Shown in pieces: positions 24,660 through 26,280 of a DNA stretch of 26,280 bases. How positions within the stretch are numbered: the first letter of the stretch is position 1; every line of letters starts with the position of its first letter. The DNA lies in the IMG/VR virus record IMGVR_UViG_3300022602_000364, positions 1 to 26,280 of that record; one strand, written 5' to 3'. The stretch comes from a virus. The translations under genes and the position numbers were made by a program. The notes under the pieces were generated by a model that was given only the letters and a program-made list of their open reading frames with translations, was not told the origin of the DNA and searched no databases.

Positions 24660-24895
24660 TTAATTGGTTTGAGCAGGCGGCGTGTGTTGGTTTGGAACCT
24701 GATGTTTGGTTTCCAAATGAACAAGCGGATGCTGAAACACCGATCAGGGTTTGTTGTTCTTGTCCTGTCATGCTGCAATGTTTGGTTTATGCGGTGGAGA
24801 CGCGGCAGCGGCACGGTGTTTGGGGTGGTCAACGTATGGAAACGTATAGATCGAAAAACGTTGGTGTTAAACGGTTTGTTTTAAAAAGCCTTTAG
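24647..24895 (+). CDS. WhiB-family iron-sulfur transcription regulator
   Basis: The 82-residue protein shows the family pattern: AACVGLEPDVWFPNEQADAE (first Cys near residue 13), then VCCSCPVMLQC, which supplies Cys-x2-Cys-x5-Cys, and RQRHGVWGGQRME, which contains the GVWGG turn before a short basic tail. The four cysteines would hold a [4Fe-4S] cluster and the protein would bind the host sigma factor. WhiB proteins are restricted to actinobacteria and their phages, so this gene is the strongest host clue. Its last codons lie inside the terminator hairpin that follows. Confidence 0.9.
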   Translation: MARLINWFEQAACVGLEPDVWFPNEQADAETPIRVCCSCPVMLQCLVYAVETRQRHGVWGGQRMETYRSKNVGVKRFVLKSL

Positions 24896-24911
24896 TACCA
24901 ACGTTTTTTTT
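24854..24911 (+). terminator. Strong intrinsic terminator after whiB
   Basis: Bases 24854-24871 pair with 24891-24908 over 18 bp with only two G-U wobbles (core ACGTTGGTG with TACCAACGT). The loop is 19 bases, and a run of eight T (24904-24911) closes it. The A-rich 5' side could also terminate in the other direction. The stop codon of whiB is inside the 3' arm. Confidence 0.8.
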
Positions 24912-25027
24912 GATTTGTAAAAACCCTTTTAGTACCAACGACTTTTTGATTTTGCGTGTTTGGGGCGATCCCGCTGGGCGCATGATTTTGTGATTCCGAC
25001 ACGCCGAAAACCCTTTTAGTACCAACG
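24891..25027 (+). repeat. Three copies of a terminator-arm motif, each followed by T-run
   Basis: TTTTAGTACCAACG or near-identical sequence occurs at 24891-24903 (one T fewer), 24927-24940 and 25014-25027. Copies two and three share the longer CCCTTTTAGTACCAACG. Each copy is followed by a T-run (8, 5 and 7 T). Only the first has its own complementary left arm, so the others are duplicated terminator halves or a protein or RNA binding element. Confidence 0.8.
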
Positions 25028-25041
25028 GTTTTTTTGGGTGC

Positions 25042-25070
25042 TTGACCTATACGCCTGAAACGTGTAGATT
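25042..25070 (+). promoter_or_regulatory. Rightward sigma70/SigA-type promoter
   Basis: TTGACC (25042-25047), a spacer of 17 bases and TAGATT (25065-25070) make a good vegetative promoter. It stands just after the terminator repeats and would start transcription near 25077, driving the structured leader and the small rightward genes. The optimum spacing makes it more credible than scattered TTGAC matches elsewhere. Confidence 0.65.
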
Positions 25071-25090
25071 GGTAACTCCAAATTAAATAA

Positions 25091-25153
25091 CGTGCTCAGA
25101 TCAAGACCGACAGAGGATGCTCTGTCCCGAGAAGTCGGCCCCTGATTTGCACG
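25091..25153 (+). ncRNA. Candidate structured RNA at the promoter's 5' end
   Basis: About 14 bases after the expected transcription start, several stems nest: CGTGC (25091-25095) with GCACG (25149-25153); TCAG (25096-25099) with CTGA (25142-25145); CCG (25107-25109) with CGG (25136-25138); and ACAGAG (25110-25115) with CTCTGT (25120-25125) around a GATG loop. The nested order is what a leader RNA or riboswitch would show. I do not recognise a class, and stems of 4-6 bp can arise by chance. Confidence 0.4.
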
Positions 25154-25207
25154 CACTTGAAACTGAACAACTCAATAGAGGCAGAACACATCACACACGT
25201 TACGTGG

Positions 25208-25381
25208 ATGGCATCCGTAGTGCATTGGGCGCGGGATTGGTTGTCGGACATATTCGTGACTCGGAGATATCGCAACGCACGCGGCATAGCCGCTAGAGCG
25301 ACCGCTCAGTTGATTAGCAGATCATTGAAGTCGGGTGCATTTGTAGTAGATGGGTTGATTGGTGTGTGCGAACGGCTGTAG
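25208..25381 (+). CDS. Doubtful small ORF with HWARDWLS motif
   Basis: From ATG 25208 the frame encodes MASVVHWARDWLSDIFVTR, then AARATAQLISRSLKSGAFVV and ends GVCERL (57 residues). There is no ribosome site. A second short frame from GTG 25366 to 25437 encodes a 23-residue peptide containing AVAHWARDWLS, from the duplicated DNA. The repeated peptide motif hints at tandem small genes, but the match may only reflect duplicated noncoding DNA. Confidence 0.25.
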   Translation: MASVVHWARDWLSDIFVTRRYRNARGIAARATAQLISRSLKSGAFVVDGLIGVCERL

Positions 25382-25406
25382 CGCATTGGGCGCGGGATTG
25401 GCTGTC
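25217..25406 (+). repeat. 29-base direct repeat, two copies
   Basis: Bases 25217-25245 and 25378-25406 are identical except for two T/C differences. The shared core is GCATTGGGCGCGGGATTGG. The copies are 161 bases apart. Neither copy has symmetry. They may mark a duplicated small gene, a protein binding site or part of a structured RNA. Confidence 0.85.
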
Positions 25407-25514
25407 ACGCTGTAGCGCGAACGTAGCGCGGGAGTAGCAAGCACACATAGAAGTCGGGAGACCATCGGGGCATTTGCATTAACAGCGCACTGCGAAAAGG
25501 GCAGAGTTGAAGTG

Positions 25515-25700
25515 ATGATCTGTACCAGCAAAGAACAAGCAAAGCAAAGACCCCCGAATTATGAAGGCGAGTTTTGCTTGCGTCCTTGTATTGGGTCTGA
25601 CATACGAGTTAACAGTGACGATTGGGTAGTCGTATGTCGGGCGGAGTGCAATGGGCACCCACTGAGAAAGGGTAGAAACAAATGTCAGAAAACAGCATGA
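25515..25700 (+). CDS. Small Cys-rich protein, unknown
   Basis: The 61-residue product reads MICTSKEQAKQRPPNYEGEF, then CLRPCIGSDIRVNSDDW and VVVCRAECNGHPLRKGRN, with two Cys-x3-Cys pairs that could bind one metal ion. It could instead begin at GTG 25512. The ribosome site is modest (GAAG just before). Its end overlaps the following gene by 19 bases. I recognise no family. Confidence 0.5.
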   Translation: MICTSKEQAKQRPPNYEGEFCLRPCIGSDIRVNSDDWVVVCRAECNGHPLRKGRNKCQKTA

Positions 25701-26116
25701 CAGCAGAGTGCATCCGTGACAACGCACAAAGCATGGATGTTTACGCCGAGGGACTTGGTGTTCCTGCATACACGGCATTGGTAGAGGAGATCAAGATGTT
25801 GCGCGGTTGCATCGACAAAATCAATGTCGATCGTGCAAACGTAAAACACAAGATCAACCAATTGCAGGATTACGTGACACAAGCGCTGAACACGTATGCG
25901 ATTGATGTTGACACGGCATGCGATTTGGCCGAGATTGGTGGTTTCTCAATCACGGAGAAATCAAAGGTCACTTTGACAATTGAGGTTGATGTCAACCACC
26001 TCATTGGTAAGCGCAACAGCATTGATACGTCCTCATTCGATGTGGACGTTGATTGGTGTGAAGACCTCATGGGTGACTTTAAAATTGTTGGATGCGAGGT
26101 TGCCGCCATTGATTAA
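25682..26116 (+). CDS. Hypothetical helical protein, upstream of the ribozyme
   Basis: The 144-residue product has an N-terminal region (SMDVYAEGLGVPAYTALVEE), a coiled-coil helix (IKMLRGCIDKINVDRANVKH, KINQLQDYVTQALNTYA) and a C-terminal beta-rich acidic part (EKSKVTLTIEVDVNHLIGKR, SSFDVDVDWCEDLMGDF). Similar small coiled-coil plus beta proteins are common in actinophage early regions; no function is known to me. The ribosome site AAAGGGTAGAAACA resembles the one before the next gene (GAAGGGTAGAAAA), suggesting one regulatory style. The stop codon ends two bases before the hammerhead. Confidence 0.75.
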   Translation: MSENSMTAECIRDNAQSMDVYAEGLGVPAYTALVEEIKMLRGCIDKINVDRANVKHKINQLQDYVTQALNTYAIDVDTACDLAEIGGFSITEKSKVTLTIEVDVNHLIGKRNSIDTSSFDVDVDWCEDLMGDFKIVGCEVAAID

Positions 26117-26118
26117 CA

Positions 26119-26169
26119 GGACGAAACGCCGCGAGGCGTCCACGGTTAGATGACCGTGCTGATGAGTCC
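26119..26169 (+). ncRNA. Type II hammerhead self-cleaving ribozyme
   Basis: All core elements are present in type II order. GGAC (26119-26122) is the 5' strand of the open stem II. GAAA (26123-26126) is the conserved purine run. Stem III is CGCC (26127-26130) with GGCG (26135-26138), capped by GCGA, a GNRA loop; A26126 faces U26139. The cleavage triplet GUC ends at C26140. Stem I is CACGGT (26141-26146) with ACCGTG (26153-26158) around a 6-base loop. CTGATGA (26159-26165) is the conserved core, and GTCC (26166-26169) closes stem II. No core base deviates from the consensus. The expected cut is between 26140 and 26141, releasing the downstream mRNA with a 5' hydroxyl. Confidence 0.9.
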
Positions 26170-26174
26170 ATCAG
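26159..26174 (+). promoter_or_regulatory. Hairpin competing with the ribozyme core
   Basis: CTGATG (26159-26164) pairs perfectly with CATCAG (26169-26174) around an AGTC loop. This fold uses the catalytic CTGATG and part of stem II, so it excludes the active hammerhead. Confidence 0.5.
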
Positions 26175-26197
26175 TCAAATTATTGAAGGGTAGAAAA

Positions 26198-26280
26198 ATG
26201 CCTAAAAGGGATACAACTGGCATGAAGGTCGGAGATTCGGTCAAGGTGACGGAGGCCGACCTACGTACTGCACCGTGGCG
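26198..26280 (+). CDS. Start of a hypothetical protein (3' truncated by window edge)
   Basis: ATG at 26198 follows GAAGGG eight bases upstream and is open to the window end. It encodes MPKRDTTGMKVGDSVKVTEA followed by DLRTAPWR. The first 28 residues are too few for family assignment; the KVGDSVKVTEADL segment looks like the start of a small beta domain. It lies 57 bases after the hammerhead cut site, so its mRNA would begin with a processed 5' end if the ribozyme is active. Confidence 0.65.
   Translation, partial: MPKRDTTGMKVGDSVKVTEADLRTAPW

Follow-up and report, generated by a model that had tools for sequence, protein, structure and literature searches.

Towards the end of a phage contig, a short self-cleaving RNA motif lies between two genes, and the locus raises the question of what such a ribozyme does to the message that contains it. 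The window, that is, the whole stretch of DNA that was analysed, is the entire virus record IMGVR_UViG_3300022602_000364 (26,280 bases). It encodes a WhiB-like gene and a GH25 lysin, and the nearest relatives of its terminase are Arthrobacter phages; the window is thus considered a fragment of an actinophage-like tailed phage. Positions 26119-26169 of the plus strand form a complete type II hammerhead whose core is perfect; it begins 2 nt past a TAA stop codon and ends 28 nt ahead of the next ATG. The best explanation, with a probability of roughly 70%, is that this element acts as an mRNA-processing hammerhead whose own tail would refold the ribozyme after, or instead of, cleavage, as judged from sequence comparison and folding models.

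The components of the ribozyme and of its surroundings are listed in the table. All the conserved core positions (C3 U4 G5 A6 N7 G8 A9, G12 A13 A14, the A15.1-U16.1 pair and H17 at the cut) are present, loops close stems I and III, and stem II is open, as in type II. Folding 26117-26171 gives the hammerhead itself as the minimum-energy structure (-21.3 kcal/mol, z -2.84). The preliminary description of this DNA, made from the letters alone, had placed a complete type II hammerhead here, between two phage genes and positioned to split a bicistronic mRNA; the coordinates it gave are correct, the features are present in the sequence, and the flanking TAA (26114-26116) and ATG (26198) agree with that placement.

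Table. Features of the ribozyme locus in the window (positions are those of the 26,280-base record)
Feature	Position	Strand	Details
Upstream ORF	25682-26116	+	144 aa; TAA stop at 26114-26116
Stem II, 5' strand (GGAC)	26119-26122	+	Partner 26166-26169
Core GAA (G12 A13 A14) and A15.1	26123-26126	+	GAA at 26123-26125; A15.1 paired with U26139
Stem III hairpin	26126-26139	+	A26126-U26139 core pair and 4 bp (CGCC/GGCG); GCGA (GNRA) loop at 26131-26134
GUC triplet and predicted cut	26138-26141	+	Triplet at 26138-26140; predicted cut C26140/C26141, from sequence and known hammerhead chemistry
Stem I hairpin	26141-26158	+	6 bp, 26141-26146 with 26153-26158; loop UAGAUG at 26147-26152; would begin the downstream RNA
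Catalytic core CUGAUGA	26159-26165	+	From sequence
Stem II, 3' strand (GUCC)	26166-26169	+	From sequence and fold
Competing hairpin	26159-26174	+	Core CUGAUG 26159-26164 with tail CAUCAG 26169-26174; AGUC loop; incompatible with stem II and the active core
RBS-like GAAGGG	26185-26190	+	Precedes ATG 26198; within a GGGTAGAAA leader, a second copy of which precedes the ORF at 25682
Downstream ORF	26198-26280	+	ATG at 26198; 27 codons (83 nt) present before the contig ends

The Rfam model RF02276 (Hammerhead_II) matches 26119-26180 with 25.9 bits (E 0.0013, 151 nt searched). The preliminary description had proposed an Rfam search and regarded the lack of a hit above threshold as a refutation: the match is there, the gathering cut-off of 37 bits is not reached, and a search of the whole window at E<=1 does not return the hammerhead. 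The same whole-window search gave weak matches to the eukaryotic snoRNA/scaRNA families SCARNA7 and sn2903, which were rejected as far under their own cut-offs. In six related loci the RF02276 cut-off retrieves 3 of about 38 parsed type II motifs. Since it misses about nine in ten of such ribozymes, the low score is no evidence against the one in the window and is not taken as a refutation. Most of the type II class is in this way hidden by the cut-off, and the window element is assigned to type II by its anatomy rather than by the Rfam threshold. It shares the open stem II, the core and the A before stem II with RF02276 and with the type II hammerheads of Perreault et al. 2011 (PMC3088659); on the other hand, its stem II has 4 bp, whereas the Rfam model favours a short one.

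Relatives were collected with a pattern that specified the core plus three pairs of stem II, with stems I and III unconstrained, and that matched at least 119 viral stretches; further scans were added for N7=C and N7=A/G. The GAC/GTC selection in stem II favours 4-bp stems, and the fractions given below are valid for this class. When the 1.07 Mb of loci among the matches listed were parsed for hammerheads, 201 type II motifs were recovered; three randomised versions of this DNA, generated with a first-order Markov (dinucleotide) model, gave none, which excludes chance. The set of matches listed finally comprised 427 distinct type II motifs in 276 loci, mostly phage contigs. Type II had initially been called the rarer form, a view that is not supported: Perreault et al. 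2011 found bacterial type II to equal types I and III in frequency (PMC3088659), and, among the matches listed, the same loci carry 427 type II, 7 type III and 3 type I motifs, a ratio biased by the choice of loci that carry type II. Types III and I are very rare here, and near-identical type III hammerheads occur in three of the contigs.

Because the loci were fetched by the core and a 3-bp stem II alone, stems I and III provide an independent test of the fold. In 25 relatives of equal length, 97.6% of the cells are paired, compared with 28-42% when the partners are slid, and double-sided changes number 64 against 13.2 in shuffles. All six stem I pairs vary on both sides. The three-helix architecture is in this manner supported by covariation, with most of stem II dictated by the search pattern.

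The position of the ribozyme relative to the genes is equally regular. The upstream stop codon falls between -10 and +1 nt from stem II in 231 of 341 cases among the matches listed, and between -2 and +1 in 155. In the first set, again among the matches listed, 97/136 ribozymes have a stop at -10 to +1, against 2/96 to 5/124 at control positions moved by 250-400 nt (2-4%). Three offsets dominate: stop-CA-GGAC, as in the window, stop-GGAC, and a TAG whose G is common to stem II. Downstream, a start codon with an RBS lies within 90 nt in 370 of the 417 ribozymes concerned among the matches listed, with a median of 23 nt; shifted controls give about 40-46% and a flat distribution. Gene boundaries in the metagenomic contigs are computed, not annotated, and greedy longest-ORF calling produces many false antisense genes in GC-rich contigs; a frame-based test for stops and an RBS-based test for starts were used. 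The 279 upstream proteins among the matches listed fall into 235 families, mostly of unassigned function, so the ribozyme is not bound to one gene. The 144-aa product upstream of the window ribozyme has no match in Pfam or PHROG and no relatives among phage records, and a single weak relative in viral contigs. That unrelated genes by the hundred share this strict order of stop, ribozyme and RBS speaks for a role in mRNA processing at gene boundaries rather than in the regulation of particular genes.

The ribozymes form arrays on one strand, with up to 8-9 copies within a few kb. Two contigs, L069 and L080, are related to the window (amino acid identity of 54-55% for the glycosyltransferase, 48-50% for the tail protein and 38-42% for WhiB) and carry four and six ribozymes, respectively, after the WhiB region, including copies near-identical to the window ribozyme. 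The window contig stops 111 nt past its ribozyme and therefore probably holds only the first copy of an array. The L069 array has DUF932 and Rad52 genes as neighbours, in an early or recombination region.

Similar arrays are present in cultured phages. The Streptomyces phages Yara, phiRKBJ001, Wentworth, Lizz and Gibson each contain 3-7 type II hammerheads in the annotated early region; Lizz, Gibson and phiRKBJ001 have 4-7 copies, Lizz seven. In phiRKBJ001, Wentworth, Lizz and Gibson the ribozymes lie between annotated genes with the same stop-ribozyme-RBS layout as in the window, and the annotated starts follow 13-17 nt downstream in these four phages. At the BLAST-matched ribozyme sites of Yara, phiRKBJ001 and Wentworth there are no annotated features. 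The arrays of these cultured phages make the question approachable in infected cells. Across the five phages the ribozymes recur at apparently homologous gene boundaries, often with C, G or A at N7 and an RBS that begins 2-3 nt past stem II. A narrower pattern run on 257 billion bases of bacterial and archaeal genomes matched 27 stretches, many of them actinomycete, and the stop placement is shared by 9 of the 16 with a readable upstream frame. Six loci represent a separate type II set with stem I loops such as GGAATTGAGACC, found mostly on Pseudonocardiales chromosomes (Saccharopolyspora, Lentzea, Sciscionella) and in one Melainabacteria bin, and the majority of this set lacks an abutting upstream stop codon.

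The second regularity concerns the bases that follow the ribozyme. The final base of stem II and the next five read CAUCAG, the reverse complement of the core segment CUGAUG. In the leader of the window the competing fold is predicted at -23.9 kcal/mol, against -21.3 for the hammerhead, and the predicted minimum-energy fold of the full leader includes the competing hairpin. Stems I and III are common to both folds and the exchange is limited to stem II and the core. A hammerhead formed by the tail on the minus strand was ruled out by inspection, given that the minus strand reads CTGATGG and not CTGATGA.

Such a core-complementary tail is found in about 13% of the type II ribozymes among the matches listed, including that of the window, and for this reason cannot be their general mode of action. 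In 191 motifs, TCAG occurs 24 times at one exact tail position and at most three times at any other. A 6-mer complementary to CTGANG is present in 39 tails, compared with 1.19 expected and a maximum of 5 in 200 shuffles. The ribozymes with a core-complementary tail come from 37 contigs, and their stems are diverse, with 53 distinct sequences for stem I and 46 for stem III. The competing hairpin is predicted to be stabler than the hammerhead in 39/39 by a median of 2.8 kcal/mol, energies that leave out the tertiary contacts favouring the hammerhead.

The most specific evidence is the covariation of the tail with N7. Before the corresponding loci were fetched, the prediction was fixed that N7=C ribozymes would have a GTCAG tail. 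In the exact register, the pairs of N7 and tail partner are T-A in 24 cases, C-G in 10 and swapped A/G in none. In any register they are T-A 33, T-G 2, C-A 2 and C-G 21 (p 1.7e-11), and one ribozyme per contig still gives p 2.7e-9. The loci fetched after the prediction alone yield T-A 10, T-G 0, C-A 1 and C-G 16 (p 1.3e-6), and matched C-G and T-A versions stand side by side in three contigs. The core-complementary tail is absent from all 62 N7=A/G ribozymes counted. The window combines a tail complementary to CUGANG with N7 covariation across its family. A fold-based test of all tails found no excess (143, against 128-147 with swapped tails); this tail-swap control is considered insensitive because the cores are all alike, and shuffled tails do give an excess. 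A possible second class of competing tails, GACUC against a stem II of GAGUC (10 vs 4.1 and 6 vs 3.3), is inside the shuffle range and is not claimed.

The kind of ribozyme is already known. According to Perreault et al. 2011, type II hammerheads form arrays flanking prophage genes and carry a pseudoknot between loop I and the tail, which with at least 4 bp is a majority feature and not a universal one (PMC3088659). The window element has in common with those ribozymes the intergenic position in phages or prophages, copies that flank single genes, and the proposed processing of long transcripts. It differs from them in its core-complementary tail, its Rfam score under the cut-off and a pseudoknot that is at most weak (PMC3088659). 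No pseudoknot of at least 4 bp is found in the window, where at most 3 bp lie outside stem II (possibly GAU 26149-26151 with AUC 26170-26172). Across the motifs, pseudoknots of at least 4 bp number 29 against 14.3 with permuted tails, a modest excess, and they are rarer with a core-complementary tail (5% vs 18%). The HHphage hammerhead of haloviruses HF1/HF2 likewise lies 13 nt upstream of the start codon of a phage gene, but it has a halophile core variant and is mentioned without a core-complementary tail in the consulted text (PMC3088659). The phrase "stop codon" does not occur in that paper, and the passages searched describe no core-complementary tail (PMC3088659). A literature search, with preprints and subscription papers mostly outside its coverage, found neither the stop-codon rule nor the core-tail covariation. 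The role of hammerheads in bacteria and phages is treated as open both by Perreault et al. 2011 (PMC3088659) and in a 2017 review (PMC6155905). The stop/RBS placement rule and the covariation of core and tail are the additions to the known kind. Compared with the preliminary description, what is new is the array context, the finding that stops generally adjoin stem II closely, and the hairpin at 26159-26174 that competes with the ribozyme.

As regards cleavage, its timing and its effects on mRNA stability and translation, the following course may be envisaged. The ribozyme would cut the polycistronic phage RNA right after the stop codon and part the upstream from the downstream message. Each new end would bear a hairpin, since the closed hairpins of stems III and I flank the cut: the upstream mRNA would finish with stop-CA-GGACGAAAC-hairpin (stem III), and the downstream mRNA would begin with the stem I hairpin and a 5'-OH end. 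From the topology, a closed hairpin on both new ends should be obtained only with the type II permutation. The order of synthesis favours the hammerhead first, because stem II closes before CAUCAG is complete. Then, as the tail emerges, the core would refold as CUGAUG/CAUCAG adjacent to stem I, and stem II and the active site would be lost. This refolding would free the two mRNAs, block religation and make the cut irreversible. Alternatively, the tail would shut off molecules that are still uncut. The tail is supported by covariation and predicts a specific, easily testable behaviour.

A comparable case is that of the Avsunviroidae viroids, whose hammerheads act while the RNA is being transcribed and are afterwards masked by a stable alternative fold. 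The likeness proposed for the window, by analogy, is a catalytic core that would be transiently active and then paired in a stabler fold. The viroid ribozymes differ in having another permutation, in belonging to a circular RNA replicon instead of a phage mRNA, and in being masked by distant regions rather than by six adjacent bases.

The foremost alternative is that the tail hairpin switches off the precursor in a manner coupled to translation. Ribosomes that terminate at the UAA, which lies 2 nt ahead of stem II, would cover GGAC and GAAA, the core and tail would pair and the mRNA would stay whole; without ribosomes the hammerhead would cut. The stop codons do adjoin stem II, and the competing hairpin is stabler than the hammerhead and leaves stems I and III unharmed. 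However, tighter stop abutment would be expected in tailed ribozymes, and stops at -2 to +1 are seen in 16/38 tailed and 139/303 untailed ones; moreover, the compact intergenic regions of phages could alone put a ribozyme beside a stop. This alternative is held with low confidence. A broader proposal treats phage type II hammerheads as bistable mRNA switches that cut co-transcriptionally unless the tail captures the core, with termination at the abutting stop deciding between the two. It is speculative; if true, mRNA cleavage would respond to the translation of the upstream gene.

Plain constitutive processing, in which cutting is the ribozyme's sole activity and the CAUCAG tail is a functionless product of shared descent, is doubtful. 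Such a tail is missing from most type II ribozymes, and Perreault et al. 2011 showed that comparable arrays are cleaved both in vitro and in E. coli (PMC3088659). Nevertheless, the tail is kept across many different stem I and stem III sequences and contigs, and it tracks N7, the sole unconstrained position of the core; shared descent by itself does not account for this. That CUGAUG-AGUC-CAUCAG is a protein-bound DNA palindrome, either an operator or a recombination site, instead of an RNA hairpin is very improbable. It is a perfect inverted repeat at the DNA level too, and a palindrome would likewise covary, but one arm is the catalytic core, under constraint at the RNA level, the copies sit between stop and RBS within arrays and not at promoters, and the spacing differs by a few bases, which hairpins tolerate better than dimer sites. 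A decayed or chance hammerhead-like sequence, inactive and scoring under the Rfam cut-off, can be practically dismissed in view of the perfect core, the parser's silence on randomised sequence, the covarying stems and the near-identical copies in L069 and L080.

Some minor features of the region complete the picture of the locus. A AAGGGTAGAAA-type leader before the ATG is common to the genes of the ribozyme region, at 25670 and 26188 of the window and in the L069 and L080 arrays; in L080 an ATG follows GGGTAG within 12 nt in 9 of 14 cases. Many structural genes have AGGA-type sites instead of these leaders. Downstream of the WhiB gene, TAGTACCAACG is present in three direct copies, at 24893, 24930 and 25017, with no further copies in the window. 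Each is embedded in CTTT(T)AGTACCAACG and followed by a T-rich run, and the triple copies could be a repeated operator or a terminator-like site. The approximately 800 bp from WhiB to the first gene of the ribozyme region (24896-25681) show scant convincing coding potential, and GCATTGGGCGCGGGATTGG is repeated within them, near 25223 and 25383.
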